Virus record (IMG/VR): IMGVR_UViG_3300025133_000069 | Coordinates: 1 to 64,000 of that record | Strand: one strand, 5' to 3' | From: a virus | Length of the DNA stretch: 64,000 bases | In this document: piece by piece, positions 5,831 to 44,442 of the stretch | Layout: each line of letters opens with the position of its first letter | Numbering within the stretch: the first letter of the stretch is position 1 | The notes under the pieces: model-generated | Told to the model about the DNA's origin: nothing | The model's input: the letters and a program-made list of their open reading frames with translations, nothing else | The model's database searches: none | Made by a program: the position numbers and the translations under genes

Positions 5831-6616
5831 ATGCAGTTTATAACAAAGTCCAAACTCAAACAAATAATACAAGAAGAGCTATCTGCAACGCTATTTGGCC
5901 AATGGACTTCGGGCGGTTTGCAAGCTGCTATAGATCGTGGAGATAAACCACGAAGACCGAACGATATTAGTGATTATATGTGGGAAGAAAGCATTAGTCG
6001 ATGTCTGAATGGTGAAAGTGAATATTGCCCTATGAACCATGGTGTTATAAGAAGGTCAGAAGTACCAGCTGAAAGAAGGCCTAGGCGCGGTATTGAACCC
6101 ACACCGAAACCTAAAAGACGTGTGTACACAGAAGATGACGAAGTATACCCAGATATTACAGATCATATACTAGGAAATATTTGGTTTCACGCTACTAGAA
6201 GACACCAGGGATATCCGTTGGTGCGCCAGTTGTCACCCGACGGTTACGTGGCGTACGCGCCGCTATGGCGCCGGCGCCCGTCGAAGTTTACGCGGTGGGT
6301 TGAGCGCATGGTGAGGGCCGATCTGGGGCATCCGGACCTTCTGGAGATCTTCGGTACTGATATCGGATCCGGATCCGGCGAGGGCGCGTCGGAAACTGGT
6401 AATGATCGGCAAAAACTGGCCTATTATTTAATTATATGGAATAAGCTAGCATGGTGGGCGCGCAGAAATGGTTATAGGCGATTAATAAAATATCCGTCGT
6501 GGGAAGCACGGTTCGCCCGGGAGCTTAAACATCATTATCGTGCCGGCTCCGAGGAGACAAAAGCATGGGAGAAAGCAACCAAACGTGGATCTTGGCGCCC
6601 AAAAACTAATTACTAG
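5831..6616 (+). CDS. Class A tagged protein with Cys-pair module
   Basis: Begins with a class A N-terminal tag (MQFITKSKLKQIIQEEL). Residues about 45-95 hold a module with W-E, R-C-x-x-G-E, Y-C-P and R-R-G-I-E that recurs in the protein at 8016. From about 6220 to 6400 the DNA turns strongly GC-rich (70% G+C at 6241-6300), encoding an Arg-rich and Gly/Ser-rich stretch. No enzyme family is recognisable. Candidate capsid-internal protein by its tag (inference). Confidence 0.75.
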   Translation: MQFITKSKLKQIIQEELSATLFGQWTSGGLQAAIDRGDKPRRPNDISDYMWEESISRCLNGESEYCPMNHGVIRRSEVPAERRPRRGIEPTPKPKRRVYTEDDEVYPDITDHILGNIWFHATRRHQGYPLVRQLSPDGYVAYAPLWRRRPSKFTRWVERMVRADLGHPDLLEIFGTDIGSGSGEGASETGNDRQKLAYYLIIWNKLAWWARRNGYRRLIKYPSWEARFARELKHHYRAGSEETKAWEKATKRGSWRPKTNY

Positions 6617-6617
6617 C

Positions 6618-7832
6618 ATGAAACTCATACTTGAAAACTGGCGATCATATTTAAACGAACTTGAGACCGATACCGGAGAGGCTAGCGTTGGCTTGGAAAA
6701 GAAGTCAATGTATGAGAAAGACAGAGAAGTACATAAAGTTAAAGTTGAACGAGAAATACGCAAAGCAAAAAAGAAATATTCTCATTCTTTGTCTGTTGGC
6801 CGATCTTATAAAAAGATTATAGAATTTTTGGTTCGAACCACAAAATTGAGCAAACAAGAAGCAAAGTTCCACTATTTGGGATCTATTTTGCCGGCCCTGC
6901 TGCACGAAATAAAAAATGTTAAATACGATTTTGAACAGCTCCCTGGAAAAACGACATATGGCGCGTTTACAGTAGAAGGTGGAGCACGTATAATAATTGA
7001 TGTAAGGTTTACTGATCCTTGGCATGAAGACTGGAAACGGTGGGCGCCTAGGTCGAGGGCGACAGAAAAGCCAACTCTAGAGAATACTTACCCTTCGAAG
7101 GGCGTACCATGGCCAATGGGTGTTTCCGCGGATACGCCGGCGGTGGAGGAGTGGCCACTTAAAATGGGAGGCAATCTGGTATTAACGACTTTTATTCATG
7201 AGCTTGGGCACTTTATTGATTACCTCTGGACCACGGAAAAGATTAAATATCCTGGTAAAGCTTGTGATGCGTTGCCCTATTTTGATATGCATTCAGATAA
7301 AGAATGGAAAATGCAGCATTGCACGCCGGCTGAATTACAAAGAAAAGATTTGGGGAGGCTTTATAAGGATTTTCTGGAACTTACGTACGGCGAAAGGAAA
7401 ACAGGTAAACTAACAAGAACAAAAGCAGAATATAAATCTGATCTGCACGAAGCTGCCGCACATGTAAGAGAAATTTTTATTACTTTGGACCGCGATGTCA
7501 CACTTAAAGAATTAAAGCTTGTGTGTGAATTTAAAGAGTGGACTAGGCAGGCCGATGCCGAGGGTCAAGCGGCAGGCCGGCCGGTCATCGATTGGGAGAA
7601 AATATCAAAAACATGGCAGCTTAGGGGGCGGGGCTATGGGGGCGCGCCGCGGACAAAGACCAGCAGGATGGGCACGCCATTGTTCCGCGCTGGCTGGGAC
7701 TATTCTCTATTATTTAAAAATCAGTTTATTCAACAACTCAACTGTAAGCGCTTAACGAAAGAACGAGTCGACGCGTTGAATCGAGTAACAAAAGTCGATC
7801 CTTCTAAGTTGCCTGGTAGGGAATACGCATAA
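6618..7832 (+). CDS. Class B tagged HExxH metallopeptidase-like protein
   Basis: Starts MKLILENWRSYLNELE, a class B tag ending in L-N-E. The ATG at 6618 is two bases past the previous stop and places the tag at the N-terminus; an upstream in-frame ATG would bury it. The zinc-binding HELGHFIDY lies at about residue 193 and a second HEAAAH at about 276 could supply the third ligand, as in gluzincins. It probably cleaves a host or virion protein. GC-rich stretches occur near 7560-7690. Confidence 0.8.
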   Translation: MKLILENWRSYLNELETDTGEASVGLEKKSMYEKDREVHKVKVEREIRKAKKKYSHSLSVGRSYKKIIEFLVRTTKLSKQEAKFHYLGSILPALLHEIKNVKYDFEQLPGKTTYGAFTVEGGARIIIDVRFTDPWHEDWKRWAPRSRATEKPTLENTYPSKGVPWPMGVSADTPAVEEWPLKMGGNLVLTTFIHELGHFIDYLWTTEKIKYPGKACDALPYFDMHSDKEWKMQHCTPAELQRKDLGRLYKDFLELTYGERKTGKLTRTKAEYKSDLHEAAAHVREIFITLDRDVTLKELKLVCEFKEWTRQADAEGQAAGRPVIDWEKISKTWQLRGRGYGGAPRTKTSRMGTPLFRAGWDYSLLFKNQFIQQLNCKRLTKERVDALNRVTKVDPSKLPGREYA

Positions 7833-7835
7833 TTT

Positions 7836-7934
7836 TTAGTACTTATCTTTTAAGGCTGCATATACAAAAACTAATATAGCACTTAAGTAAAGCAATACTT
7901 CAAATCCTATCTTAAGCCATTCAACCCTGTTCAT
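7836..7934 (-). CDS. Possible 32-aa membrane peptide
   Basis: Minus-strand reading of the otherwise empty stretch between two tagged genes gives a 32-aa peptide with one hydrophobic segment (FEVLLYLSAILVFVYAALK) and flanking charges. No good ribosome binding site is seen, so it may not be expressed. Similar one-helix miniproteins occur elsewhere in the window with convincing binding sites. Confidence 0.35.
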   Translation of the reverse strand: MNRVEWLKIGFEVLLYLSAILVFVYAALKDKY

Positions 7935-8015
7935 ACTATAAAAAGCATCTCATATAAAAAAATACCCAGTAATATTTTAAAAACTAATTAATATTGCAAA
8001 CTCGGGATCTTTATT

Positions 8016-9788
8016 ATGAAAATTACCAAGCCTCTTATACGACTAATCGAAGAAGAGCTAGCAGCTGTTTTGGAAGAGCAAATAACTGATCCGGACGCAC
8101 CACTCATGACCGTCCCTGATGCTGCAGCTGGTCCGGACGAATATTCGCATGAACTTCCTGATCCTGTGGAACATCGGCCGGGCGATGAGGTTGATTTGTA
8201 TGTATATGCTGGTGAGCAGGACGGAGAGGAGGACGTTGCAACCAAAGAAGCCGTGAGGTGGCTTAGGGAGGAAGGGTACCCTTTCTGGTATTATGACGTC
8301 ATGGGAGGACCTTCTGATCAGCCCGCCATGGCTTTTCAAGGGGAGCGCTATAATCAAGAAGAGTATGAAGCAAGTGAATATTATTCACCTTGGGAGGATG
8401 AAGGAGACTTGGTGGATAGTCTAAGGAATCCCGCGGCGGTGGCGCGAGATGATGCAATGCGAGCTTTTTCGGAATTGAAAACTCATATAGGCATATGCAA
8501 TAGATATCCTGTTAACACGGTACCAGGCTGTGCATATGCCGATCCGATAGGAGCGGGATGGCCAGTCTTTTTATTTACTAAAAAAGGCGCATCTAAAATA
8601 TCTCGCCCTCCTGAGTTTCGTCGAGGTTGGAGTGAGGAAGTGAAAGGCTGGTTGCAAGGTATGTTTGGTTCGGGGTATATAAAAAGGAAAAAATTACCGC
8701 GACATCCCCGGAGATCGAGGCCACCAACGCGCTGGCCTGAGCATATTCTTGAGCCATTACTGAAGACACATGGTGGAAAACAGGAAAAAATTACTGAAAC
8801 AACTCTCAAACAATTAATTAAAGAAATACTTGATGATGCATTCAATCCTGAATATTCAGGTTTGAATTTATATACCCCCGAAGAAATTTTGCGAGATGAC
8901 CCTATGGCACCGCCTGGTTTTGATCCTGAAGTTTGGGAAACAGCCAAGAGAAGATGCGTGGATGGTGAAACATGGTATTGCCCGCATAAAAGAAGCGGCT
9001 CACGTCGTGGGGTCCGTTGGGAAGAAGAGCCTCGTCGATCCAGGCGTGGTATAGAATATCCTGTCCCTCGTCCTCCTGTTCCCGTGCAATGGTACCCTAA
9101 AGTAGGGGCGCTTGCAAAAGTTATGGCGAAGATCGAGTGGTGTGATCAGATCTACGATCGGCATGGGGTTCCGGCGCGTGGCGAGCGAGGGTCGCCGGCA
9201 TATAGGCGAGAGCAACGTAAATGTGATAAAAGTGCACTGGCAGCTGCTGTGGGTTCAGATTTTATTCCTATCTTTAAAAAAGGAAGGGAAGGAAGCTATA
9301 ACTTGGAAGCTTGGACGTCAATTTCACCTCATCCCGGAATGACTTATGATTGGGGTGGGTCTCCGGTGGAGAAAGGAACGCCGGGGGAGCGATGGGCGGA
9401 AGCTTCGGAATTTGATGATTGGGGTTGGCACGGCGCCGAAACGTTAAGTTTGGCCAGGGAGATATTGCAATATCGACATGGAATCGATCGCGAAGCGGAG
9501 TGGGATGACCCGCGGCAATATGCCATGTCACCTGAAGAAAGACAATTAAAATTTAAAAAAGGCCGCCATCCAATGAGCAAGAAGCTGGCGCCTTGGTTGT
9601 ATGATGTGGATAATGTACCTGATCATGAAGTGGTTGGTCGGCACATGGCAAGATATCCACACTATGCTGAATATCTGTTGGAGTATTATTTGGATCTCGT
9701 GCGTTATCAAGGTGGCGATGCAAATAAAAAGCCACCAGGGATCTCAAGCAGAAAATGGAATAAGCTTAAACCATCAATCCCAGAATGA
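8016..9788 (+). CDS. Class A tagged protein with a second, internal tag
   Basis: Starts with a class A tag (MKITKPLIRLIEEEL, then AAVLEEQ) and carries a second class A-like copy inside at residues 258-273 (KITETTLKQLIKEIL). The second tag is followed by the Cys-pair module (W-E, RRC-x-x-GE, WYCP, RRGIE) also present in the protein at 5831. This looks like two tagged proteins fused in frame. The remaining sequence is Arg/Pro/Trp-rich with no known domain. An acidic segment follows the first tag. Confidence 0.78.
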   Translation: MKITKPLIRLIEEELAAVLEEQITDPDAPLMTVPDAAAGPDEYSHELPDPVEHRPGDEVDLYVYAGEQDGEEDVATKEAVRWLREEGYPFWYYDVMGGPSDQPAMAFQGERYNQEEYEASEYYSPWEDEGDLVDSLRNPAAVARDDAMRAFSELKTHIGICNRYPVNTVPGCAYADPIGAGWPVFLFTKKGASKISRPPEFRRGWSEEVKGWLQGMFGSGYIKRKKLPRHPRRSRPPTRWPEHILEPLLKTHGGKQEKITETTLKQLIKEILDDAFNPEYSGLNLYTPEEILRDDPMAPPGFDPEVWETAKRRCVDGETWYCPHKRSGSRRGVRWEEEPRRSRRGIEYPVPRPPVPVQWYPKVGALAKVMAKIEWCDQIYDRHGVPARGERGSPAYRREQRKCDKSALAAAVGSDFIPIFKKGREGSYNLEAWTSISPHPGMTYDWGGSPVEKGTPGERWAEASEFDDWGWHGAETLSLAREILQYRHGIDREAEWDDPRQYAMSPEERQLKFKKGRHPMSKKLAPWLYDVDNVPDHEVVGRHMARYPHYAEYLLEYYLDLVRYQGGDANKKPPGISSRKWNKLKPSIPE

Positions 9789-9831: not shown

Positions 9832-11067
9832 ATGAAAATTACCGAAAAAGTTCTTAAGCAATTGATCAAAGAAGAGTTAGCTAAAATATTTGAAGGAGAC
9901 GACGGAGACGTCATTAAGGGCCCATGGGGCGACAAACCCCCCGGAAGTACTGAAGATTGGCTCGACCAGTGGGATGACTCTCTTGATAAGCTGGACACTG
10001 AAAAACAGCGGATGTTCGATCAGTGGCAGAAAGATCCAAATTCAGTACCGGAGAAATGGCGTAAGTTCTTTGAGCCGAATGTGACACAGTTGCCCGGGCG
10101 TGAGCGTATTGCAATACAGCCCCCGGAATCGGGCGCCCCAGGACGAGTAGTTCAGGGCCCATGGGGAGATATTCCAGCTCTTGAACCGCAGAGAGGCAGA
10201 CCGGTCTCTGATTACATGGAAGTTGCTAAAATATTCAAAGGAGATCCTGATGCTATAAAAGATCTTCCGGTTCCACCTGGGCAGCCAAAATTAAATGTGA
10301 ATTCAACAACAGAAGAAATTGCAGCTGCCTTAAAATACGATGAGGACCTTTACTGGAGCGCTAAAGACGCGCCGACGAAGAAGAAGAGTGGTCGTGGTAC
10401 CGCTGCAAGCTTGCATGGAAAAGCAGGGGATCCCATGAACCCCGACGCTCGACGCGAAACTCTTAGAAATGTAAGAGCAATGGAACAGCGTACGCCAGAA
10501 TTAAAAGGTAAGATATTAGAACATCCAAATGTAAAAGATAGAGTGAGAGCTTCTGTAAAGAAAAAAATAGCTGCCGGCGCTTTTATTGGTATTCTTGTAT
10601 GGCAATTGCTGGAAGGCTTGGCCAACGCAACGGAAACACATGGCCATTTATTAGATGAAGAAGGAAATATTAACGAAGATAGTGTTAAAGCCCATGGGAT
10701 AGAACTGGGAAAATTTGGGATTAGCGCGGTGGATCCAACTGGTATAGCAGACGTCGGCTTCGGCATACACGAGATTCTTAGCGCCGATGATCCAAAGTAT
10801 ATGAGTGAGGTACATGGTCAGGCCATGGCTGAGATGTTTGGTATTCCTACTCCATCGGATGCAGGACCAGAAGGAATAAAACCGGGAAGTGCTACTGCGC
10901 CGGGCGAGGTTATTGCGACGGTCGCTCCAGATTGGCTAGAAATATGGAATCCAGTTGGTGAAGAAGAGGGTTTCACGATGGAATGGGAACCGGGGCCCGA
11001 AGATCCGCGTATGCAAGTCCGCGAATCTAAAAAGAACACCAGAAAAATTAAAATATTAATTAAATAA
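9832..11067 (+). CDS. Class A tagged protein with hydrophobic segment and basic C-terminal tail
   Basis: Starts MKITEKVLKQLIKEEL followed by AKIFEGD, so the tag ends in I-F-E. I chose ATG 9832, which has GGAG 10 nt upstream, over an in-frame TTG at 9817. A GPWGD motif occurs twice (near residues 26 and 108). A hydrophobic segment lies near residues 246-262 and is followed at about 300 by DPTGIADVGFGIHEIL, a motif shared with the giant protein at 15002. It ends V-R-E-S then KKNTRKIKILIK, a tail seen in two other tagged proteins. No enzyme family recognised; a membrane-active ejection protein is possible. Confidence 0.78.
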   Translation: MKITEKVLKQLIKEELAKIFEGDDGDVIKGPWGDKPPGSTEDWLDQWDDSLDKLDTEKQRMFDQWQKDPNSVPEKWRKFFEPNVTQLPGRERIAIQPPESGAPGRVVQGPWGDIPALEPQRGRPVSDYMEVAKIFKGDPDAIKDLPVPPGQPKLNVNSTTEEIAAALKYDEDLYWSAKDAPTKKKSGRGTAASLHGKAGDPMNPDARRETLRNVRAMEQRTPELKGKILEHPNVKDRVRASVKKKIAAGAFIGILVWQLLEGLANATETHGHLLDEEGNINEDSVKAHGIELGKFGISAVDPTGIADVGFGIHEILSADDPKYMSEVHGQAMAEMFGIPTPSDAGPEGIKPGSATAPGEVIATVAPDWLEIWNPVGEEEGFTMEWEPGPEDPRMQVRESKKNTRKIKILIK

Positions 11068-11109: not shown

Positions 11110-13011
11110 ATGCAAAAACTTTTCGAAAATTGGCGTAACTTTGAAAAATTAATTTTATCCGAAGCTCGGGATCCTTTTGGTATTACTGTAGCTAATGAAA
11201 TTACTAAGCATGTACTGGCATTTCTCAAGACTCGTAGCGATGAGTTTTGGGAGAACACCCGACCAGGCGTGGCTCCGCCAGAGCCGGAGGATGCAAGAAG
11301 ATTTCCTTATCCTGTCACTACAACAGTTGAAAGACAACAGGGCCCGCTATTACCTCAACTGACAGATTACAAAAGAATAATAGTAATACCAAAAAATGTT
11401 TTTATTCGGAAATTTAAAGCAAAAAAACTTCCTTCTTCACCTGGGCCAGGAACAATGCAAGCGGCGGGAATTCACGATGTTCGTAATTTGAAAGATGCCT
11501 TTGCGAAGTTTCCTGATTTAGAAAATGTTATTGTAAAAATTGATTTCGTATCAGATAGAATGATGAGCAAGGTCATCAAGGCCGAGGGCGAAGCGGGCGC
11601 ATTACTACCAACGAGACATAGTAAGTTTTTTATGGACGGCGCGGCAGGGAGTAGGTCAGCAAAAGCAGCTTGGAATCCGGAGCATCCTTATTCTCCGAGC
11701 CATCCGCCGCATGGAGGCTCTGGAGATTTAACACTGGAAATCACTCTCTCTGACGACTTTTTCCGTGCAGAATCGAAAGAGTTATTTTTAATTGATTTAA
11801 TAAAACCGTTGCGCGCAGGTCTAATATTCACGACCACTCATGAGTTAGAACACTTTCAACAAGGTTTGCCTCATCCTCTTCGCGGAAAGACTAGTAGACA
11901 TCCTGCTGGACATCTTGAAAAATTTGAAGAGCCTTATAGTCCTGAAGTTGCTGACCGAGGGCGCCCGGGCCCGGGAGAGTCGCCAGCGGCCCCTCCGGGA
12001 AGTGCATGGCGAATATTTGTGTATGAATTATTACCAGATGAATTTGAAGCCAATATAAAAGGGTTGATAAACACAGCTAGAAAAACTGGGTATCCCCTAA
12101 TAAGCAATTACGAAACTGTGTATGGCGCGGCCTCGCAGGTCGACCTCCGCGTCGCCGGCGGCTTTCATCTGGAGACGGGAAGAGGTTTATTTGAACTTTG
12201 GCTTAAGCAGAGAATTAATTCGTATTATCGACTACTTCGACAGACGGGGACAGCAGTCTTGACCGTTGAGAATCATACAAAAATAATTATGGAGAAAGGT
12301 CGTGAACTATTAATAAAATATGCCAAACAAAATCTTCCAAAAATTCATGCTGCTATAATGTCGCAGGTGGAAAAAATTGCAAAGAATAGACAGTTATTGG
12401 CGGATCCCCGAATGCGATTGGAAATTGAGGATGCCGTGGGTCGTCCCACTCCTAAAGGTGAGGCTGTCTTAAAAAGCAAAAAGTCATTTTCTACAAGTCT
12501 TCGAGGCGCGCCCCTTATGGCACTAGACTTATCTTTGAGATTAGAATTTGCAGGCCCAGAAGTAGAAGAGAAGGCCATGGCCGTCTTTGAATGGGGTCGA
12601 GATACCGCTATATGGACAGCTATCGGGGCTGCATCGACCGCTGTCGTTGGTGCTGCATCTCCTGGTGTATTAGCTGGTATGATTATTTCTTGTATGGTTG
12701 ATCCGACATGTCACCCACCAAAATCGCGAAAGGAAGCGCATAGAGAAAAAATAAAAACATCAGAAGCTGGTATCGATGCTGCAATTGATATGTGTAGAAA
12801 ATCTGGAATGGTGCCTGATCCTTTAAATCCCCGGGGCTTAAAATATCGTTCGGGCAAACCTATAGGTGGTGTAGAGTGTGTGACACCCGAAGAAGCTGAA
12901 GAAAGAAAGAAAGAATTACCTTGCTGGGAGCGTCCAGAAGGTTGTAGTCATTTGGAATCTGTTAGAGAAAATAAATCAGTTCATAAAATCAAAATTAAAT
13001 TGTTAAAATAA
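11110..13011 (+). CDS. Class B tagged HExxH metallopeptidase-like protein with membrane segment and basic tail
   Basis: Starts MQKLFENWRNFEKLILSEAR, a class B tag ending in L-S-E. HELEHFQQG lies near residue 242, and DEFEAN near 308 could supply a third zinc ligand, as in gluzincin-type proteases. A hydrophobic Ala/Gly-rich stretch follows at about 501-529. The C-terminus is SVRE then NKSVHKIKIKLLK, the same V-x-E plus basic tail as in the protein at 9832. At 633 aa it is larger than a simple protease. No upstream Shine-Dalgarno is seen. Likely a capsid-packaged, ejected protease (inference). Confidence 0.78.
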   Translation: MQKLFENWRNFEKLILSEARDPFGITVANEITKHVLAFLKTRSDEFWENTRPGVAPPEPEDARRFPYPVTTTVERQQGPLLPQLTDYKRIIVIPKNVFIRKFKAKKLPSSPGPGTMQAAGIHDVRNLKDAFAKFPDLENVIVKIDFVSDRMMSKVIKAEGEAGALLPTRHSKFFMDGAAGSRSAKAAWNPEHPYSPSHPPHGGSGDLTLEITLSDDFFRAESKELFLIDLIKPLRAGLIFTTTHELEHFQQGLPHPLRGKTSRHPAGHLEKFEEPYSPEVADRGRPGPGESPAAPPGSAWRIFVYELLPDEFEANIKGLINTARKTGYPLISNYETVYGAASQVDLRVAGGFHLETGRGLFELWLKQRINSYYRLLRQTGTAVLTVENHTKIIMEKGRELLIKYAKQNLPKIHAAIMSQVEKIAKNRQLLADPRMRLEIEDAVGRPTPKGEAVLKSKKSFSTSLRGAPLMALDLSLRLEFAGPEVEEKAMAVFEWGRDTAIWTAIGAASTAVVGAASPGVLAGMIISCMVDPTCHPPKSRKEAHREKIKTSEAGIDAAIDMCRKSGMVPDPLNPRGLKYRSGKPIGGVECVTPEEAEERKKELPCWERPEGCSHLESVRENKSVHKIKIKLLK

Positions 13012-13084: not shown

Positions 13085-13552
13085 ATGAAAATTACAAAAA
13101 GACAACTTCAACGAATTATTAAAGAAGAACTTGAAAAAGTTTTGAAAGAAGCCGAAAAAGGTTGGGCCGGCGGAATAGGTGATATTATCCGTCGTGGTCT
13201 CGAAGAACTTATAAAAATAGCACAAGGATTGACTCAGGCACTTAAAGCAGCATGTGCACAAAAAGATTTAATTTTAATGGCGGTTAACAATCCAAAGATG
13301 ATTAAATTAATTGTTAGTACTGCTAACCCAGCAGAGGCCGCGGCTGCAATTACTCTAGCTGCACAGGAGGCCGGCATTCCCGTACCGGGAGACGCGACGA
13401 AGGCTTTGACTATGGTGATTACAGAAATGAAGAAAGATACATTTTTCTGGGATCAGCTTGTAAAAGCCATGAAAGATGAAAGTGTACGTAAAACAGTAGT
13501 GGCCACTATTTCAGCAGCGTGCCCGAAACCAACGACGGAGCCGGTACCATAA
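13085..13552 (+). CDS. Class A tagged helical Ala-rich protein
   Basis: A 155-aa protein starting MKITKRQLQRIIKEEL, then EKVLKEAEKG, a class A tag ending in L-K-E/A that closely fits the T4 prohead-protease rule. The rest is Ala-rich and predicted helical, with a Trp-Gly-Gly turn after the tag and two later Cys residues. It has a good ribosome binding site (AAAGGG). No family recognised. Its size and composition resemble small internal head proteins. Confidence 0.78.
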   Translation: MKITKRQLQRIIKEELEKVLKEAEKGWAGGIGDIIRRGLEELIKIAQGLTQALKAACAQKDLILMAVNNPKMIKLIVSTANPAEAAAAITLAAQEAGIPVPGDATKALTMVITEMKKDTFFWDQLVKAMKDESVRKTVVATISAACPKPTTEPVP

Positions 13553-13580: not shown

Positions 13581-13856
13581 ATGAAAGTTACCAAAAATTA
13601 CCTTAGACGATTAATTGAACAAGAATTAAGAAATATACATGAAGATGATGATGATCCTCTCTCTGCTGAGCCTGGTGGTCTCGGTGGTCTCGGTGGTGAG
13701 AAACCTTCATTACCGCCTGATGCTGGTGGGGTGGCTGAGCCAGAAACAGCAGAAGCAATGTTAGAGAAGGTTCATGCAGATCTTGAAAGGTGGTTGGGAG
13801 GCCATGGCGGCGATGTTTCACCAAGTACAGATGTAGAAGACGAAGACGAATTTTAA
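13581..13856 (+). CDS. Small class A tagged acidic protein
   Basis: A 91-aa protein starting MKVTKNYLRRLIEQEL, then RNIHEDDDD, with I-H-E closing the tag. The body is acidic, rich in Gly and Pro, with a GGLGGLGG stretch and a C-terminal DVEDEDEF. An AAAGGAG ribosome binding site precedes it. Only the tag links it to its neighbours; the body is likely disordered. Confidence 0.75.
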   Translation: MKVTKNYLRRLIEQELRNIHEDDDDPLSAEPGGLGGLGGEKPSLPPDAGGVAEPETAEAMLEKVHADLERWLGGHGGDVSPSTDVEDEDEF

Positions 13857-14232: not shown

Positions 14233-14994
14233 ATGAAATTATTATTCGAAAGCTGGCGTCAATTTATATCTGAAGAAGAATCACCGCGAATTATCGCTAT
14301 TGGTGACAGTATTACAGCGATGAAAGGATCTTATATTGATCTCTTGGGCGGCGAGAAGTTTGCTAAAGGAGGACAGACAAGCAGACAGCGTATACTTTTT
14401 AATAAAGTTAAAGATGCTACAGCTGGAAGGTCTGATTATCCAGATTATATAATTCTTTTTATGGGTACTAATAATATTGGTGCTGGCGATAGACGTTATG
14501 GTGCTAGATTCGCCAAGCCAGAAGACGAGAATCCAAAATTCGTTAGTGAGTTAATAGCTGATTTAGGGAAATATTATGGTTGGGCCAAAACTGGCTGTGC
14601 GTTTGAAGGGAAGACGTCAAGAGAAACGAAATGTATTCCACAAGACCATTCAGCTACAGTTATTGTATTGCCATTGTTTCCTGCTTATGATTATTGGTTT
14701 AAACGATATAATACGTTGAACGAGAAGAAGAAGATAAGGTATGCTGGTTGGGAACCTAATTTAATGATGAAAAATTTAAATAAAGTTAATCAAGCGATCG
14801 CTGAAATATCAGATATACCTATAAGCAATGAATCAATGTTAGAAGTTGCTGTTAACTGGAAGGATGACGGAAGTGGTTTGGTAGGAAAAAACATCCAAGA
14901 ACAATACAGAGGAAGAAAAGGCAATGATTATATTCATCCCAACAAAGCAGGTCATGCAGCATTAAAAGCCCTAATTAAAGAGAGGCTGTTTTAA
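14233..14994 (+). CDS. Class B tagged SGNH/GDSL hydrolase
   Basis: Starts MKLLFESWRQFISEEE, a class B tag ending I-S-E. The body carries the SGNH blocks: IIAIGDSIT (Ser nucleophile, near residue 26), a Gly in block II, FMGTNNIG (block III) and DYIHPNKAGH near the C-terminus with the Asp-x-x-His pair. Such enzymes deacylate lipids, sugars or glycans. With its tag, it is a candidate head-packaged esterase that acts on the host envelope or glycans during or after ejection (inference). No signal peptide is present. Confidence 0.85.
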   Translation: MKLLFESWRQFISEEESPRIIAIGDSITAMKGSYIDLLGGEKFAKGGQTSRQRILFNKVKDATAGRSDYPDYIILFMGTNNIGAGDRRYGARFAKPEDENPKFVSELIADLGKYYGWAKTGCAFEGKTSRETKCIPQDHSATVIVLPLFPAYDYWFKRYNTLNEKKKIRYAGWEPNLMMKNLNKVNQAIAEISDIPISNESMLEVAVNWKDDGSGLVGKNIQEQYRGRKGNDYIHPNKAGHAALKALIKERLF

Positions 14995-15001: not shown

Positions 15002-18000
15002 ATGAAAAAAAGAACTATCACCAAATCTCAATTAGAAAATGTCATCTCTGAACGCTTGACTGGTCTATTGCAGGAAGAAAAAATAATTCCTGTAAAGAAA
15101 AGAACTATCACTAAGTCCCAATTAGAGAGCGTTATATCCGAACGTTTAACAAATCTCTTAAAAGAATCGAATCCTGTATTCAAAAATCCCGCCACAGGGC
15201 GTGTGAGGGGTGGGCGCACTGTGACGTCGGCCCGTGGCCTGGAGTTCGTCGAGGCTCACCTGACACACAGAGGGATTGCGCGCGGGCTCCAATTCGGAGT
15301 TAGTACAGAGGGACCACCCGAACAGTATTATTTAAAGGGTAATAATCCCAAAGATTGGCATTGGCCAACTTTAACGAATCGTGATTATGAAAAAGCGCTG
15401 CAGGCGGCCCATGACTTCCTGGGCTTCGAACCAATGCATGGAGAGGTTGGTCCCCATGGGGAGAAGCGCCGGATGATGCTCGCTGAAATGAGTTCGAAAC
15501 AATATTGGACAAGAGTTGCAGCATTACAGGATAAATATGAAAAGATATTACGTGAACACTTTGAAAAACATCCACTTGTTATTAAAGATCCAGTTCTCCG
15601 TCTCGGGAAAACGGCGCCGAGCAAAGCTGCCAAGCGCGCGGCGAGGAGAAGACTTGCTAAGGCGGGGCTCGCAATTGAGAAGCCGGCATATCATGCAGCG
15701 CGAACAGGGGCTGAGCAGCTACCAGCGGTTAAACCGGGCCGCGGCCAACCAGCCAGCAAAGCTGAAATAAAGAAGATGACAATTCCCGAACTAAAAGCTA
15801 AGCTGACGGGTATGGATGAAACGACACTTGCAAAACATCAATTGTCAGCAGAAGAAATAGTTAATGAAAGAATTAAACGAATGTCTTTTGGCAGAGCAAT
15901 AATTCAAGCAGATTCAGAGTGGATTGCAACAAACTTTATGAAAACAAAAGTGCCTGTTATACCACCATTCTTTGAATTAATGAAACTTGAATCTGAATGG
16001 AAAATACGTGAATTTTATCGCGTCATGGGGAGCCGCGGTCAGCGGAAGGGACGTTTGGATCTGCGGCCGGGTGATATTCTTGAAAATAAAGTAGAAACGC
16101 TTCGAGACGCTATGCGTTGGCTTAGTGGAATGGAAGAGATACCAGGGATGAAGGCCGGGATGACTGGAGAAAAATCCGCCATTGAATTAAGGAAAGAAAT
16201 TTGGAAAGGTAATATATCTGGTGAGTTAGAAGAAACAAAGCGTCAAGATCGCCATGGCGCGCACAGGAGCGAAATAGAAAAACAGTTACACACACTTGAG
16301 AAGCAAACGAATGCACTTGAAAAAGAGCTGGGGTATAAGAAGGGTAAAATATGGGAAGAATTATTATTAGACTATAAAGAAACACCGGTAATAGAGAAAG
16401 AAACAAGAGGAGAGCGTCGAAAAAGAGGATATCCAGAAAAGAAAGAAAAAAAAGGCACGCCCCAAGCAAAAAAGAAACTTCCAAGAAGAGTACGTACACT
16501 TGAACAACCAGGATGGCGTTATAGATCAGACCTGAGATTTCACGCCACGGCTCCGACTGCCTCCCCTAGAGAAATGTGGTCACCAACTTTGCAACGCTCT
16601 CCTTCAGCTGAGCCTTCAATGCCTGGTAAAAGGTATTTTGGAAACGAACAATTCCAGATAATGACAGCCTTACGTTCTTTAGGTGATCCTATAATTTTAC
16701 CAGATGAACTTTGGAATAATTTATATGGAGAAGGACCAATTTGGGGTGTTAAACTTCTAGGTACCCCGACGGAGCCGGTCCTGCGCGAAGAAGGATTATT
16801 TGGTAGATTTCCCAGTGGCCGCGGCTTGCCTGAAGAAATAATATCAGATTTAACATTTTGGAAAGATAATACGATATCAGAAAGTAAAGTTCGAGAACGT
16901 TTCAAACGTCTGCCTGAAGTGTTTGGTACTTTAAGAGACCTTCGGATTGCGGCGCCACAGGCCTGGCTCCCGAAAAAAATTGCAGATGTAGTATCTCCCA
17001 GGGGTCGTGACCCGGGTAGGTATGTTACCGATAAAATAATAAATGAATTTATTGATGCGTATTCTTTGAACTTGGGAACAACAGGAACTTCTGATATTCT
17101 TATTAGTGAAGATGGAACTATAAGATTTCTTGATAAAAAAGGCCGTCTGTCCCCCACAAAAAAATTGACACGAGGGAAGAATTTATTACAAGGTAAATTA
17201 CTAGAAGAAGTCGCAGATCTCATTGAAGAATTACATAAAGAAAGTGTAGCCAAAATAACAAGAGAAGAAGTTGTAAAAGCAACCCCAAGAGAAGGTGACC
17301 ACCTTCATTACCGTATTAACTTGGAGCGCGAACAGAGAGTCCGACCGACCTGGGGGGCAGGCGAGACGTTTGAGAGCAGGTATCCCGGTGGGAGCGCGCA
17401 TCCGCCGCGAACTGATCGAGGTGCTGGTATGCGTCCCAAATGGGAAAGATGGCATATAGGTGAACAGTATGTTCCAGATCTATTTCATGGAGAACGATTT
17501 GATATCGAAGGCACCACGGTCGGCGACCGGTCGTCGCGCCTGCAGCAGCTTTTGGCAATGCGAGGAGAAGATTCTGTTTGGGATGCTAAGCCATTAGAAA
17601 ATTTCAAAAATGACCCACGTCTCGGGAAACAACCTATAGGCCCCGATGGTAGGCCGATGGACTCCAACGCGTGGCATGATCAAGTGGTTTACCATTGGCC
17701 AGAGGAGGTGGCGGCCCGAAGAGCTCTGCGGGGCGCGGCTATAAACATGCGTAATAAGATACGTTATAGAGATGGGATCCCCCCGACGTCGGGGGGACGG
17801 CTCGTGATTGGTGCCAACTTACTTGAAGAAGCCAAGTTTGGACCAAGAGATATGAAATTAAAAGATGGCACAATTATATTCTTAGAAGATTATCTAATGC
17901 TAAAAGAAGGCGAGGGTATCTTGATGGGAGAATATGGGAAAAGATATGTTTATCCTATCCCCGTCAAAGCAAGGGAACACCACCCGGGAACCCAGCGTTG

Positions 18001-27546: not shown

Positions 27547-28134
27547 ATGACACGTAAAAAGAAACAAATTGATGAACAGATTCAGGGTTCAAATAGATCA
27601 AGACCGGGCAGCGCCATGGCTTCTTTTGAACAGCCAAATGAGCCATGGATGGAACCATGGGACGATTTTAAAAGTGATGCGCAAGAACCAAGTAGTGGTA
27701 GCATAATGAAAATTGTCTTACACAGGAATGGCTTTTGTTTATTTCTTCGTAATGAGCAGGGTTTGGATTTACCGGGGGGCCATATGGAAAGGGATGATTT
27801 TACTAAGATTGAGGCGCTCAGGAGAGAGGTTCTTGAAGAGACTGGTTTAACACTTTCAACTGATGATCGTGATATAGTTGAACTATTTGGTTTAGAACTA
27901 GCACATCCTAGAAAGCACTATTATGTGGGCCCGTTGCCGGGCGGCAAGTGTCACGCAAGCGGGGAACACATAGGAGGTTGTGAAGAAGTTAGATTAGAAG
28001 ATGTAGAAAATAGGGACGATATTTCTGCAGAATATAAAGAAGTTATACGTAAAGTACTAAATACAATTGTAGATAGAAGTGGTGACGACCTTCAACCCTT
28101 TGCCCCGGGCGTTGGTTTAATGGGAAAGCGTTAA
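27547..28134 (+). CDS. Nudix hydrolase
   Basis: A Nudix-fold pyrophosphohydrolase by its Nudix box: LPGGHMERDDF, then ALRREVLEETGL (residues 75-101), with the REVLEETG core intact. Substrates of such enzymes include NTPs, NAD derivatives, nucleotide sugars and capped RNA; the sequence does not decide. The 50-residue N-terminal extension rich in Pro, Trp and Ser is not part of the domain and is not a class A or B tag. It lies between a tagged gene and a repeat-tagged gene. Confidence 0.82.
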   Translation: MTRKKKQIDEQIQGSNRSRPGSAMASFEQPNEPWMEPWDDFKSDAQEPSSGSIMKIVLHRNGFCLFLRNEQGLDLPGGHMERDDFTKIEALRREVLEETGLTLSTDDRDIVELFGLELAHPRKHYYVGPLPGGKCHASGEHIGGCEEVRLEDVENRDDISAEYKEVIRKVLNTIVDRSGDDLQPFAPGVGLMGKR

Positions 28135-38876: not shown

Positions 38877-39575
38877 ATGAAAATAACAAAATCACAATTA
38901 AAACAAATTATTAAAGAAGAACTGAAAAGTGTTTTAAGTGAACAATTGCCACGTCGCTCGGCTGAGCGCCGGCGACAAGACCGCGAGAAGTTTAAAAAGT
39001 GTCTTAAGACTTTCAATCCTGAAAAAGAAGGTACTAATTTTTCGTATGAAAATATAGCTTTAAATCTTAAAATGGCTTTAATCCTTAATGATCTTAGAAC
39101 ATCGACGAACAGCGGAAAATCTCTCAAAAAATGGAAAATTGATCCGTTAATAAGTTTAAATCCCGGGCATGTTGAAGAAATTAAAGAACGTTATATAGAA
39201 ATGCGTTGTCAGGATCCTGATCAGAGTCCTGCTAGAGTTCGAAGAAGGGCTGGTGCAATTGGTGGCGATAGTAGCTTTTTTAGGGACCAGAGCAGTGGCC
39301 TGGGTGCTGGCGTGCGGCGATTTCATAAGGGCCCGCTGTCGCGCGGGTCCATAACTAATATTTTTGATGGTTTTGGGGATCCCGGCGGATATTCGCCTTT
39401 GAGAGATGAGCTTAACGATCTTCTAGAAAAAACAGGTGCATGGAAAAAAATGCGCATGGATGACCCTGTACGTAAACAATATAAAAATTGGATTCAAACA
39501 AGATTAGGGCGATGTGAAAAGGGGGGTGGAAAAACCCTCCCAGATGGTAGTTGTTCGAAAGATGTAGTGCATTAA
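38877..39575 (+). CDS. Class A tagged protein (first of three in a row)
   Basis: Starts MKITKSQLKQIIKEEL, then KSVLSEQ, a class A tag closing in L-S-E. ATG 38877 follows GAGGGG at a good distance. The body is basic with PRRSAERRRQDREKF and RVRRRAGAI stretches, GC-rich at 39290-39350, and has two Cys near the end (CEKGGGKTLPDGSC). No family recognised. Its first 55 bases are nearly identical to those at 39592 and 39974, so the three genes share a recently copied tag module. Confidence 0.78.
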   Translation: MKITKSQLKQIIKEELKSVLSEQLPRRSAERRRQDREKFKKCLKTFNPEKEGTNFSYENIALNLKMALILNDLRTSTNSGKSLKKWKIDPLISLNPGHVEEIKERYIEMRCQDPDQSPARVRRRAGAIGGDSSFFRDQSSGLGAGVRRFHKGPLSRGSITNIFDGFGDPGGYSPLRDELNDLLEKTGAWKKMRMDDPVRKQYKNWIQTRLGRCEKGGGKTLPDGSCSKDVVH

Positions 39576-39591: not shown

Positions 39592-39954
39592 ATGAAAATC
39601 ACAAAATCACAATTAAAACAAATTATTAAAGAAGAGCTGGAAAGTGTTAAGATACACGAGCGGAAGGCGAAAGCAGGAGAGGAATACGGTGACTTCGTCG
39701 TCGTCAAAACAGTCGACGGGGGTACAGCCGCGGTCCGCAAGGATGTTTATAAATATTTTGGCCCTATTTCTACTATACTTCCGACTGACACGCTTATGAA
39801 TGCTTTAGAACAGGCTATGAAAAAAAATAATATTCCTTTAGATATCGTCGGTTCCGGGGTTGGTAGAATAGGTGCGGACTCGGGCGGCAGATTCACGTTT
39901 AAATTTAGTGTAGATCTCGAACCTGCCAAACTGCCGGCCCCAGAAGAAAAATAA
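39592..39954 (+). CDS. Class A tagged small protein (second of three)
   Basis: A 120-aa protein with ATG after GGAGGTG. The tag MKITKSQLKQIIKEEL is followed by ESVKIHE, with I-H-E as candidate cleavage site. The body (DFVVVKTVDGGTAAVRKDVY and onward) reads as a compact alpha/beta fold with a GSGVGRIGADSGG loop. No family recognised. Confidence 0.77.
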   Translation: MKITKSQLKQIIKEELESVKIHERKAKAGEEYGDFVVVKTVDGGTAAVRKDVYKYFGPISTILPTDTLMNALEQAMKKNNIPLDIVGSGVGRIGADSGGRFTFKFSVDLEPAKLPAPEEK

Positions 39955-39973: not shown

Positions 39974-40228
39974 ATGAAAATCACAAAATCACAATTAAAA
40001 CAAATTATTAAAGAAGAGATGGAAAGTGTCTTAAAAGAACAAGAGGTGCTGCGAGGGGCGAGAATAACGAAGAAGAAACAAGACGGGGACTATTGGATTG
40101 TAACTGTGTGTCTAAGAGACACTTGTGCAGAAGGAAAAGCAAAAGGAGCTACTACCAGCATCGCGATCCGCGCGGCCGAGCAGAAGGCCCGGACTAATTT
40201 GTTAAAGAAACTAAAGGGAAATGACTAA
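39974..40228 (+). CDS. Class A tagged small protein (third of three), just before tmRNA
   Basis: An 84-aa protein whose tag MKITKSQLKQIIKEEM is followed by ESVLKEQEVL, with L-K-E. The body is a short basic beta-alpha unit (KKQDGDYWIVTVCLRDTC). It ends 3 nt before the 5' end of the tmRNA gene and may share its transcript. Confidence 0.75.
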   Translation: MKITKSQLKQIIKEEMESVLKEQEVLRGARITKKKQDGDYWIVTVCLRDTCAEGKAKGATTSIAIRAAEQKARTNLLKKLKGND

Positions 40229-40231
40229 TAC

Positions 40232-40580
40232 GGGGGTGAACTGGTATCGACTGAGTATTGAAAATATAACGTGCAAGGCTGTGATGAGTGAAGGCACAGC
40301 ATAAAACACTCAAAATTTAAACGCCAACGATAACGTTGAGTTTGATTACGCCCTAGCGGCGTAGTCATGGGGAATGACGAGAGCCTTATTAACCAAAGAC
40401 TGTTCATCGATGGTTTTCTTCGGAAAGTAGATGTAAGAGGGTTTTTCCAAGTTAGGCCCATAGGATAAACTTGGTGGTGCGCGGTGCGAGTTTGTCAGAG
40501 TTCATAAACTGACTAACCTTGTGAATGACGTTGTATTAGAAATATTCAGGACCCGGGTTCGACTCCCGGCACCTCCACCA
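40232..40580 (+). ncRNA. ssrA: tmRNA (ssrA) with encoded CCA and tag peptide ANDNVEFDYALAA
   Basis: A full-length 349-nt transfer-messenger RNA that rescues stalled ribosomes and tags the product for proteolysis. The 5' GGGGGTGAACTGGTATCGAC pairs its first seven bases with CACCTCC before ACCA at the 3' end, and CCGGG-TTCGACT-CCCGG forms the T arm. The tag reading frame at 40323-40364 starts at resume codon GCC and ends TAG, giving ANDNVEFDYALAA, which ends in the ALAA degron read by ClpXP. It is a one-piece type. Phage tmRNA genes are known but uncommon. Confidence 0.95.
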
Positions 40581-40594
40581 ACTATTTAATAATA
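40581..40594 (+). promoter_or_regulatory. Candidate late-promoter element ACTATTTAATAATA
   Basis: ACTATTTAATAATA begins at the base after the tmRNA CCA and overlaps the ATG at 40594. A near copy, ACTATTTATTAATATG, precedes the gene at 41682. There is no ribosome binding site between element and start, so if it is a promoter the message would be close to leaderless. Confidence 0.35.
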
Positions 40595-41649
40595 TGCAGA
40601 AACTATTTGAAAATTGGCGGAGATTCGTAGAAGAAGACAATAAAGCTTTAGAATCTAAAATACGCGCGGCATTAGCTGAAGAAGGCGGCGCTGCTGATAT
40701 GGAAACATTGAAAGAGTATACTGGAGCGACCGAGGAAGAAATCAAATCTGCCATGGGGGATTGGGAGGGCATAGAAGAGCATCCGGGATCGTCTGACTTT
40801 AGAAAAAATATTTTATTAGAAGGCCAACGCGAAAATCTTCCAGAATGGTTTAAAGAGTGGCTTGGGGATTTTCTAGAAAAAGATTTAGATGCACCTGGCG
40901 CGAAAGAATATTTTCGTAATAGGTCGGCACCTATGCCGCCGGCGACGGATCTTGAAGGATATCGTGGAAGAGGAGGAGGCTTCCCCGCGCGATGGGACCG
41001 ACCGCCGATTCCGCCGATCCACGCGAGTAGCACGGGCCGGCAGGCGCCGCATTTGGATCTGCAGGGCCGGCCAAAGGCGCCGGGCGAGCAGAGGTGGCGG
41101 CGATGGGCTGACCGAGCGCTCGGGCTTCCACCTCATCCTGAACCTGTCGCCGGTGCTGGCCATCGCGCAGTGCCTGCTAGCCGGCGAGAGCTTCGATCTG
41201 CGCACAACAAGAACAAAAGTAGATTAGTAAATGATATTAGAAGAGAAGCCACGATTATAGAAAAAGCTGTTCCAAGACGTCCCGGGGCCTTTAAACAATT
41301 TTTGCAAAAAGCTAGGAATATTCCATTTTTAGGTAATTTTTTCAAACTTGCACTTCTTGGGTATGTAGGTACTGATATTCTAACTAGAGCTGATAATGCG
41401 TATGCTAGCCAGGGAGTAATAGGAGTATCTAAAACTATAGCAGAAGAAAGTCTTTTATTTTTACCTAGCTATATAGAAATAAGCTTAATAGCTTCTGCGT
41501 TGGAAGAGGCATTCCCAGATATTGTGTTCCCAGGAAAATGGAAACGTGATAAATATTGGAAGTCTTCAAAATATGATGTTGAAGATTATCCCGGTGGATC
41601 AGAAGAAGAAACACCTGAAGAAGACGTGGGGCCTCTACCAGATGTATAA
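40594..41649 (+). CDS. Class B tagged protein with GC-rich island and hydrophobic region
   Basis: Starts MQKLFENWRRFVEEDN, a class B tag ending V-E-E. Positions 40980-41200 are a GC-rich island (73% G+C at 41041-41100, against 33% at 41401-41460) coding a Pro/Arg/Ala-rich stretch. The last third has hydrophobic helices (FFKLALLGYVGTDIL and SLLFLPSYIEISLIASAL), recalling the membrane-like region of other tagged proteins. It lies right after the tmRNA. No family recognised. Confidence 0.72.
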   Translation: MQKLFENWRRFVEEDNKALESKIRAALAEEGGAADMETLKEYTGATEEEIKSAMGDWEGIEEHPGSSDFRKNILLEGQRENLPEWFKEWLGDFLEKDLDAPGAKEYFRNRSAPMPPATDLEGYRGRGGGFPARWDRPPIPPIHASSTGRQAPHLDLQGRPKAPGEQRWRRWADRALGLPPHPEPVAGAGHRAVPASRRELRSAHNKNKSRLVNDIRREATIIEKAVPRRPGAFKQFLQKARNIPFLGNFFKLALLGYVGTDILTRADNAYASQGVIGVSKTIAEESLLFLPSYIEISLIASALEEAFPDIVFPGKWKRDKYWKSSKYDVEDYPGGSEEETPEEDVGPLPDV

Positions 41650-41668
41650 TAGAGATAACGTGACACCA

Positions 41669-41682
41669 ACTATTTATTAATA
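41669..41682 (+). promoter_or_regulatory. Candidate late-promoter element ACTATTTATTAATA
   Basis: ACTATTTATTAATA overlaps the ATG at 41682, and the 20 or so bases around it match those after the tmRNA (CACC-AACTATTTA-TAATATG). No ribosome binding site is seen between element and start. Confidence 0.36.
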
Positions 41683-41834: not shown

Positions 41835-42152
41835 ATGAAGAATTTATTCGAAAATTGGCAAAATTATTTACAAGAAGATAGTGAAGAAAAAACGGATAAA
41901 CCAAAAGTAGTATGTAACTGTCTTTGTACTGATTGTATTTTTAATAAAAGTGAACAATGTATAACTGAAGAAATTAATCTAGATTTTGCACAAACGAAAC
42001 AAGGTAAATGGATATGTGAATGTTTGACTTATGAGGTTGATGAAGGAAAAGAAAAAGGCCCAGAAGATTCTACTGTGCGTGGAAGAGAAGAAGTAGATGA
42101 ATCTGCTTGGTCAGGTTCTGGACCGTTAAAAGAACCAATTGAAGAAATGTGA
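41835..42152 (+). CDS. Class B tagged Cys-rich (DUF1540-like) protein
   Basis: Starts MKNLFENWQNYLQEDSEE, a class B tag ending L-Q-E. The body has VVCNCLCTDCIFNKSEQC, then INLDFAQ and later CECLTYE, the Cys spacing of DUF1540-type zinc-binding proteins. The remainder is acidic. A small zinc protein carrying the packaging tag would fit an internal head protein. Confidence 0.72.
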   Translation: MKNLFENWQNYLQEDSEEKTDKPKVVCNCLCTDCIFNKSEQCITEEINLDFAQTKQGKWICECLTYEVDEGKEKGPEDSTVRGREEVDESAWSGSGPLKEPIEEM

Positions 42153-42186
42153 CCAGACAATGATTCCTAGTTAAGGATATTTATTA

Positions 42187-44442
42187 ATGAAAGAAATATA
42201 TGAAAATTGGAGATTGTTTACTGAAGCAGCAGATCCTTTAAGTGACGCCGAAATTGTTAAAGCGTTTCAAAAACTAGATATTGTTGCTGATATAGATCTG
42301 CCATCGGCCGATGCGCCGGAAGAGGTCTGGGGGAGATACGGGCGCTCGGGGACCCCGGAAGCTCGCGAAGAACTTTCCCGTGTTGCCCGACGTTTTTTAG
42401 ATCAAGGAACACCAAAAATAAGAATTCTTGAACTAGCACATCGCAGTGGACTTCGTCGATGGTTATTAAAAGATCTTGCAACGGAACTTGGTGTGCCACT
42501 GGAGGCGCTTCAGACTCGTCAGTTTGCCGACGACAAGGTGATGCCCAAGAGCAAGCGCGCAAAAAGACGGCGAAGGAAGGGCCTGTCAAAAAAGGAGATG
42601 TTGCGTCTTCCTGATATAGAGGATCCTTTTTTTGATATACCAGAAGCAGAGAGAGAATACTTAGAAGTATTACATGGGGCGCCAGGTGAAGCGCCCGATG
42701 GATGGATTCGAGCGGGAAGTCCTTCACATATGACACAGGATCCTGGTCGGTTTTTGGAAACGATACGAAGGGATGTAGCAGATCTTTCTGGCGGTAGCAA
42801 TCTTTTTAATCCCGATGAAGATTACCTTTATTATAATTATAAGACTAAAAAGATTGCCATTGCTAAAGCACATCCAGAAGTTAGAGGAATAATTGTGCTA
42901 CCAGATAATATAAGATGGGATTATAATACTGGAAGATGGTCTGGTACTGTCAGTATAGAGACGTTAACAGATTGGGTGCCTGAATATATACCAAAAGAAC
43001 ACAATCCTCTTTGGACAGGCGCAGTTGATACGCGTATCAATATGCCTGAAGTTCATGAACCTAGGCCAGGTTGGGGACGTGGTCCGGAGCTGGATCACCT
43101 GGATGATCCTGGGTCGAAAAGATGGACAGAAGTCAAAGAGAGATATGTCCCTAAAGATTATGAAGTCGGAGATAGTTATGAGACGGAGGCTCAAAGAAAT
43201 GAACGTCTTATCAGAAATGAAGAACTAGGTCCAGAGCATGCAAGACTTGCACAAGACGAGCGCGCACGTGCCGAACTGCTGGCGGAGCAATCTCTAGATG
43301 ATTCCAGGCTTCGAGCCAGTTTAGATAAAAAAGAAAAAAAACTTTTTAATAAAAGCTTCAAGAAGTTTGTTAAAAAAACCAAAGATGTCGGTCAAGCTGA
43401 GAGCATGGCCCTCCAGGCTATTCGTACAAGAAGAAAGCTAATAGCTGATTTAGAAAAGATGCCATTTCTTCCAAAGAGTATGAAAACGTTGATCTCGATG
43501 GGCAAACGAACACTCCTGATTTTAGCAATTATACTCACGCTCTCAGGGGTCTGGATAGCTATAGATTGGAAGAGTTTCATGAAGTACGGTCCGCCGGGGT
43601 GGATTGCGTTTCTACTTGGAGCCGTATGGGAAGCGATAGTTGGCATAGAATGGAGCACGTGGGTACAATCAAATGGTGTTAAACCACCTGAAACTCTTGA
43701 AGAAATGAAAGCAATGTTAGATCGCGAATTGCATCCAGATCAAAAAGCAGAACTTAGAGATATAGCACTAGCAGGTATAGGCACTAGTCTCACAGTAGGT
43801 TTAGTTGATCTTGCTGATGTAACCGCTACCATACAAGTAGAAGAAGCGCTTAAGGATTTTCGATTCAAATGGTCTCTATGGAATGCACAGATTGGTAGAG
43901 AAAACAAAAAATTCATGATCCTCGATCCGAAAGATTATCATCGCAGCGAGGTGATCGCTTCTCCAACCGCTAAAGATCCACGTGGTTTTACAACACCTGA
44001 TAAAACAACAGAACTTAAATTACAATGTGCAGAACATCAAAGATTTAAAATTAGAACTTTACCTAGAGTCAAAGATATGGTACGTCTTGGAATTGTCCCT
44101 ACTCCAGAACTGATCGATCTGGCTAGTAAGGTTGGTTATCGTTATGAAGGTAGCAACGCTGATGGTTCTCCAGCTTGGAGAGGTATACCTCCGGATAGCC
44201 CGGGCGCTAAATCCTGCAAAGAATTAGCAAAGAGAGGTATACCGGTGCCTGTACCAGGTAAATGGATGGGGCCTGAAGATCCGATAAGATCTACACCTGG
44301 ACCTAGGCCAGAAGACACACGATTGCATGAAAACATTAAACATAAAGTAATTAAATTAAAAATTTTAAAAGAACGTAAAGTAGCTGAACATAAAGTAATT
44401 AAATTGAAAATTATAAAAGAACGTAAGAAATATAAGAAATAA
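42187..44442 (+). CDS. Large class B tagged protein with membrane helices and repeated basic tail
   Basis: Starts MKEIYENWRLFTEAAD, a class B tag ending F-T-E/A. At about residues 130-140 it is very basic (KSKRAKRRRRKGLSKKE). Two membrane helices lie near 440 (TLLILAIILTLSGVWIAI) and 470. The C-terminus is R-L-H-E then NIKHKVIKLKILKERK, with the HKVIKLKI unit repeated immediately after, matching the tails of the proteins at 9832 and 11110. Region 42300-42600 is GC-rich. No enzyme family; candidate ejected membrane-spanning protein. Confidence 0.75.
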   Translation: MKEIYENWRLFTEAADPLSDAEIVKAFQKLDIVADIDLPSADAPEEVWGRYGRSGTPEAREELSRVARRFLDQGTPKIRILELAHRSGLRRWLLKDLATELGVPLEALQTRQFADDKVMPKSKRAKRRRRKGLSKKEMLRLPDIEDPFFDIPEAEREYLEVLHGAPGEAPDGWIRAGSPSHMTQDPGRFLETIRRDVADLSGGSNLFNPDEDYLYYNYKTKKIAIAKAHPEVRGIIVLPDNIRWDYNTGRWSGTVSIETLTDWVPEYIPKEHNPLWTGAVDTRINMPEVHEPRPGWGRGPELDHLDDPGSKRWTEVKERYVPKDYEVGDSYETEAQRNERLIRNEELGPEHARLAQDERARAELLAEQSLDDSRLRASLDKKEKKLFNKSFKKFVKKTKDVGQAESMALQAIRTRRKLIADLEKMPFLPKSMKTLISMGKRTLLILAIILTLSGVWIAIDWKSFMKYGPPGWIAFLLGAVWEAIVGIEWSTWVQSNGVKPPETLEEMKAMLDRELHPDQKAELRDIALAGIGTSLTVGLVDLADVTATIQVEEALKDFRFKWSLWNAQIGRENKKFMILDPKDYHRSEVIASPTAKDPRGFTTPDKTTELKLQCAEHQRFKIRTLPRVKDMVRLGIVPTPELIDLASKVGYRYEGSNADGSPAWRGIPPDSPGAKSCKELAKRGIPVPVPGKWMGPEDPIRSTPGPRPEDTRLHENIKHKVIKLKILKERKVAEHKVIKLKIIKERKKYKK

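Follow-up and report, generated by a model that had tools for sequence, protein, structure and literature searches.

What do the two short peptides do that begin sixteen otherwise unrelated proteins on one fragment of a marine virus of bacteria? The window, the whole stretch of 64,000 nucleotides analysed here, is part of a 76,429-base IMG/VR record. This record is a fragment of a T4-like phage, as marked by a gp55-like late sigma factor, a gp41-like DnaB helicase and PhoH, and hundreds of sampled relatives of the virus share the same tagging habit. An earlier note on this DNA divided the peptides into nine class A and seven class B tags, and all sixteen were found at the start codons that it gave. 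The tags, together with two additional class A copies inside tagged proteins, are:

5831-5872, + strand: class A tag MQFITKSKLKQIIQEEL with a one-residue insertion; gene 5831-6616, 261 aa.
6618-6659, + strand: class B tag MKLILENWRSYLNE, followed by L; gene 6618-7832, 404 aa.
8016-8054, + strand: class A tag MKITKPLIRLIEEEL with a one-residue deletion; gene 8016-9788, 590 aa.
8787-8825, + strand: extra internal class A tag KITETTLKQLIKE of the 8016 protein, residues 258-270.
9832-9873, + strand: class A tag MKITEKVLKQLIKEEL..IFE; gene 9832-11067, 411 aa.
11110-11163, + strand: class B tag MQKLFENWRNFEKLILSE with displaced L-x-E, followed by A; gene 11110-13011, 633 aa.
13085-13126, + strand: class A tag MKITKRQLQRIIKEEL..VLKE, followed by A; gene 13085-13552, 155 aa.
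13581-13622, + strand: class A tag MKVTKNYLRRLIEQEL..IHE, followed by D; gene 13581-13856, 91 aa.
14233-14274, + strand: class B tag MKLLFESWRQFISE, followed by E; gene 14233-14994, 253 aa, GDSL-like esterase body.
15002-15076, + strand: class A tag, copy 1, MKKRTITKSQLENVISERLTGLLQE; gene 15002-21289, 2095 aa.
15095-15166, + strand: class A tag, tandem copy 2, KKRTITKSQLESVISERLTNLLKE, in the same 15002 gene.
25370-25411, + strand: class B tag MKSYHDNWRNFLTE, followed by A; gene 25370-27541, 723 aa, muramidase-like and GDSL-like domains.
38877-38918, + strand: class A tag MKITKSQLKQIIKEEL..VLSE, followed by Q; gene 38877-39575, 232 aa.
39592-39633, + strand: class A tag MKITKSQLKQIIKEEL..KIHE, followed by R; gene 39592-39954, 120 aa.
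39974-40015, + strand: class A tag MKITKSQLKQIIKEEM..VLKE, followed by Q; gene 39974-40228, 84 aa.
40594-40635, + strand: class B tag MQKLFENWRRFVEE, followed by D; gene 40594-41649, 351 aa.
41835-41876, + strand: class B tag MKNLFENWQNYLQE, followed by D; gene 41835-42152, 105 aa.
42187-42225, + strand: class B tag MKEIYENWRLFTE, followed by A; gene 42187-44442, 751 aa.

When a tag profile trained solely on other contigs was run on the window, 12 of the 16 tags exceeded its threshold, as did none of the 641 internal start-like codons. The four sub-threshold tags, three with an insertion or deletion (5831, 8016 and 15002) and one divergent (42187), are all clear by eye. The bodies behind the tags, described earlier as unrelated, gave no mutual BLASTP match at 1e-5 outside the tags; as an exception, Pfam sees GDSL-type domains in both the 14233 and the 25370 protein. 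The body of the 41835 protein shares 63% identity with a class B protein of another contig (L151), and a single-sequence search of viral contigs found no relatives of the 14233, 25370 and 42187 bodies.

Several other features of the record were observed. A tmRNA gene (window 40232-40580, with the tag peptide ANDNVEFDYALAA) lies immediately upstream of the class B gene at 40594, and the window has a GroES-like co-chaperonin at 4259, a NUDIX hydrolase at 27547 and an adenylosuccinate synthetase-like protein at 45353, of which the NUDIX hydrolase alone was confirmed by search. At L004:1446-16427 (record 61446-76427) are huge open frames of 1232 aa and more than 3287 aa, which probably encode virion proteins; a PHROG search with the 1232-aa frame returned no match.

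The tags follow a clear grammar. Position-by-position information content gave a 14-residue consensus for each class: MKITKSQLKQIIKE, or M K [IL] T K x Q L [KR] [QR] I I K E, for class A, and MKLLFENWRKFLNE, or M K L L [FL] E N W R K [YF] L x E, for class B. Both 14-mers close with a near-fixed [IL]12-x-E14. The [LIVF]-x-E ending proposed in the earlier note is borne out, with [LIVMF]-x-E in 95% of 239 class B tags, compared with about 10% of control windows, and the tag at 39592 ends in K-I-H-E. Past E14, conservation in class B is near background at once. In class A a second, weaker motif follows, L20-x-E22, and there are two candidate cut sites, E14 and E22; some tags, including the one at 5831, have no L-x-E at the second site. 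Of 44 class B tags with a displaced E14, 35 still have an L-x-E no more than five residues on, with about 9% expected. Thus the predicted cut site can be told apart from the helix. For such a helix, the structure predicted for a protein that carries either tag in different phages is only suggestive, with a helix at residues 3-15 followed by strands (mean pLDDT 64.6).

Could the shared starts be a recombination or gene-conversion module, in which identical 5' ends allow cassettes to be swapped and the peptide has no function? The tags at 38877, 39592 and 39974 are indeed nearly identical in DNA, and tagged genes can form dense tandem arrays, with 17 class A genes inside 8 kb of L299, a phage contig binned with a bacterium. 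However, at tag positions with the same residue the codon differs in 39-46%, and these differences cluster at third positions in the tag and not in the body, which points to selection on the peptide and not on the DNA. A functionless peptide also fits poorly with an L-x-E that is kept when displaced, with a tag that recurs internally and in tandem, and with a conserved head gene that has the tag (see below). We therefore regard a recombination module as hardly credible. A few class A tags sit internally or at the C-terminus of proteins; the class A-like stretches at L276:7494-7718 and in two proteins of genome G002 (L480:15491 and L491:11354) look as if they were fused cargo modules.

The closest known parallel is the capsid-targeting sequence of phage T4. 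T4 IPII and IPIII begin with MKTYQEFIAE (NC_000866), in which residues 4 and 7 were mapped by mutation to targeting and residues 8 and 10 to processing, and gp21 cuts after L/I-x-E (PMC9026906). When the peptides are anchored at the Glu, T4 positions 4, 7, 8 and 10 correspond to tag positions 8, 11, 12 and 14, which are L/W, I/[YF], I/L and E in class A/B, that is hydrophobic, hydrophobic, [IL] and Glu; this match was made post hoc over four positions, although fixing the Glu leaves nothing in the register to adjust. Like the T4 sequence, which IPI, IPII, IPIII and Alt share and gp21 removes (PMC9026906, PMC12373910), the tags are short N-terminal peptides on unrelated accessory bodies. Counted back from [IL]-x-E, their hydrophobic residues fall where T4 has those for targeting, and an S77 prohead protease is found in the relatives. 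On the other hand, the tags here have 14 residues and the T4 sequence 10, with no sequence match beyond the register. One phage may have two unrelated-looking tags, some of them tandem or internal, up to 25 tags were detected in a near-complete genome, and dense tandem arrays occur. The T4 proteins are packed in the head (PMC9026906, PMC12373910), as those described here are predicted to be.

The window's own fragment has no S77 protease, no T4-type portal and no match to the capsid N-terminus of a relative, and head assembly was therefore studied in relatives. A link between the tags and prohead protease genes, raised in the earlier note, was found among them: S77 is present in 24 of 24 tagged contigs of at least 150 kb and in 38 of 50 of at least 84 kb. 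The 12 tagged contigs of at least 84 kb without S77 also have no capsid gene, and in two of them a portal gene is placed at the contig end; thus these 12 are fragments missing the head operon. Wherever a tested tagged contig includes the head operon, S77 is present too. Among untagged random contigs, S77 was present in 3 of 11 of at least 84 kb (Fisher p=0.004 versus tagged) and in 3 of 5 of at least 150 kb (p=0.025). This association is support and not proof, and is weak on its own because the base rate of S77 is high in very large phages and phylogeny confounds the comparison. In 14 capsid genes from tagged phages, [LV]-L-[RK]-E is kept at the end of the prodomain.

A conserved small gene near the protease, usually the next gene, itself starts with a class A tag, MAKITKRMLKGIVKECLVEILSE or alike; examples in the head operon are MAKITKRMLKGIVKECLVEILSEG in L271 and MKKSELKAIIKECVKEALFEEG in L265. 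Because class A matches the N-terminus of this gene beside the protease, the tag probably either descends from a core protein or mimics the way one binds. A corresponding origin of class B from the N-terminus of the S77 protease was considered and rejected, since for most proteases this N-terminus scores mid-rank among 724 background genes.

The tags might also address some site other than the head interior, such as the tail or baseplate, a membrane or a replication compartment. Cell-wall hydrolases are present among the bodies (muramidase-like in 25370, Amidase_2 and M74), and in other phages such enzymes are tail-located. Such an address is quite improbable in view of the T4 head-tag register with its [IL]-x-E end, the class A start of the gene beside the prohead protease, and the presence of S77 in all tested tagged contigs with a head operon; moreover, the tags show nothing like a transmembrane segment.

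Tags and bodies combine in a modular way. In a small family, LDIEVGDVILTGRFKNKR..GQPTING.., three phages have a class A tag and three others a class B tag; alignment of the bodies starts right after residue 14, and E14 is invariant. The NT5C nucleotidases are untagged in G030 and class B-tagged in six phages, and those of immuto, HTVC008M and L164 have other N-terminal extensions with the same domain start. Since the same body can have either tag, classes A and B look like variants of a single signal that can stand in for each other. Two binding sites or two layers of the core, which the earlier note had offered as the meaning of the two classes, are disfavoured by these swaps and by the large class A phages, in which no class B tags were detected.

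If class B alone targeted head cargo, class A could mark proteins of the structural core or the scaffold, destined for degradation. The resemblance of class A to the head-operon core gene would be explained in this way, as would the short class A proteins (median 118 aa, versus 212 aa for class B). This division of roles is nevertheless unlikely, for the same bodies bear A or B, and class A bodies, which include long proteins, are as diverse as those of class B (501 versus 251 body clusters).

Nearly all tagged bodies match no known domain. Among 144 class B proteins, Pfam identified protein kinases (7), NUDIX (3), NT5C (3), acetyltransferases (2) and nucleotidyltransferases (2), along with guanylate kinase, murein hydrolases, a zeta-toxin-like kinase and others. 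Of six other bodies tested, one resembles ART-PolyVal at a level below the cut-off and is a possible ADP-ribosyltransferase. The annotated bodies suggest host takeover or the blocking of defence, and this suggestion is based on T4 Alt and IP1-3 (PMC9026906, PMC12373910). A common C-terminal signal was looked for, and just a rare basic tail was found. This tail, like RENKSVHKIKIKLLK, occurs at the C-termini of the large tagged proteins 9832, 11110 and 42187, the last with two copies, and also in L159, L161 and L196.

The tagging habit recurs in many viral contigs. A degenerate-pattern scan of the viral collection found the class A DNA pattern in at least 120 stretches and the class B pattern in at least 119, with a chance expectation for class A of about 1e-6 in the whole collection as roughly estimated from uniform bases. 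In the sampled loci, 963 proteins have a tag, and their bodies form about 750 clusters. Near-complete genomes had 25 (G002, all class A), 15 (G030), 10 (G049) and 3 (G081) detected tags. The class A core was absent from about 350,000 residue positions of random viral loci, and the class A pattern was found in 0 of 47 random viral contigs of at least 30 kb; one of these 47, G081, has class B and two class A tags by profile. A wide occurrence in non-phage proteins, which by the earlier note would speak against a head signal, was not seen for class A, the class scanned for: its pattern is nearly restricted to phage contigs, with four contigs only across bacterial and archaeal genomes totalling 257 Gb. 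Three of these four were checked, and S77 was present on one contig, elsewhere in the bin of another, and not in the bin of the third.

Upstream of the tagged genes of the window is a candidate late promoter element:

5819-5826, + strand: candidate late promoter element ACTATTTA, 12 nt before the ATG at 5831.
6605, 7983, 11098, 13048, 14208, 25343, 38846 and 40581, + strand: further copies of the ACTATTTA element.

The motif ACTA[AT]TTA occurs 16 times on the + strand of the window and 0 times on the - strand, and precedes 9 of 16 tagged genes compared with 2 of 50 untagged ones (Fisher p=1.3e-5). In relatives it was found before scaffold and virion-like genes. Most tagged genes of other genomes individually have no such motif, and the promoter pattern is thus specific to the window. 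At 5819, 6605, 11098, 40581 and 41669 the motif is merely 12-13 nt upstream of the ATG. Leaderless late transcripts are possible, because this spacing leaves scant room for a leader.

By portal and capsid protein, the closest cultured relatives are Flavobacterium phage immuto, Microcystis phage Mel-JY01 and Rhodothermus phage RM378, all with annotated prohead proteases. The class A or B consensus tag was not found in these three phages, nor any repeated tag in RM378; two sets of analogous tags, NFDLKKFLVE and MKKSQLRQIIKE, occur in immuto. Three proteins of Mel-JY01 (L510:10275, 10922 and 12055) start with MIKL-x-SL-x-x-E followed by SDRVWH; these starts fit the T4 10-residue register (hydrophobic 4, 7 and 8; E10) and are a possible further tag. 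A start of the form Phi-x-x-Phi-[LIVM]-x-E was considered as a universal feature of S77 phages and rejected: it is enriched in immuto and the tagged genomes, but not in RM378, Mel-JY01 or G081, and this wider grammar is not enriched in the untagged genes of most S77 phages. A tblastn search of the tags against cultured phages gave no match, in which the low-complexity filter may have removed class A. The paper on Far-T4 phages, the group of RM378, mentions no such tags (PMC4360716). Our literature search, which left most subscription papers outside its scope, found neither tag described, and found the T4 sequence and the longer propeptides of giant phages.

In the giant phages SPN3US and phiKZ, many head proteins have N-terminal propeptides that are cleaved by a gp21-like protease (PMC5694885). 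Unlike one shared short tag, the propeptides of their ejection proteins are much longer than those of T4, several exceeding 100 residues, and a reported SPN3US site is A-V-E, not L/I-x-E; the tags here span 14-22 residues. In phage P1, an N-terminal signal directs the anti-restriction protein DarB to the head (PMC9024508), but this signal is no short peptide common to many proteins.

It is very likely that the tags direct cargo proteins to the head and are then removed, in the manner of the T4 capsid-targeting sequence but on a greatly expanded scale. The T4-type tag that the earlier note proposed is backed by the register, the [IL]-x-E end, the linkage to S77 and the head operon, and the near-absence of class A from cellular genomes. 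Points that weigh against it are the second candidate cut site of class A, the tags with no L-x-E there, the class A tags at internal or C-terminal places, the fragment of the window with its missing S77, portal and capsid genes, and the wider grammar that shows no enrichment among untagged genes of most S77 phages. In the mechanism that we propose, the tagged proteins would be made late in infection, and the amphipathic N-terminal 14-mer, with classes A and B acting as interchangeable forms of one signal, would bind the prohead core. At head maturation, as the motif and the linkage suggest, the S77 prohead protease would cleave after the Glu of [IL]-x-E. By analogy with T4, the mature bodies would be kept inside the head and, together with the DNA, pass into the next host.

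A broader proposal, which we hold tentatively and at slightly less than even confidence, is that widespread T4-like and jumbo phages have an open cargo system. Any protein that gained a 14-residue tag would be packed, cut and delivered with the DNA; tandem and internal tags would produce polyproteins split by the protease; and the bodies would form a pool of effectors evolving like the substrates of secretion systems. Head-packaged injected proteins have mostly been discovered singly by virion proteomics. A sequence rule could nominate thousands of likely injected proteins at once, mostly in uncultured phages, and would make cargo choice, cleavage and counter-defence testable. The presence of two interchangeable tags in one phage raises the question of what the core receptor recognises.
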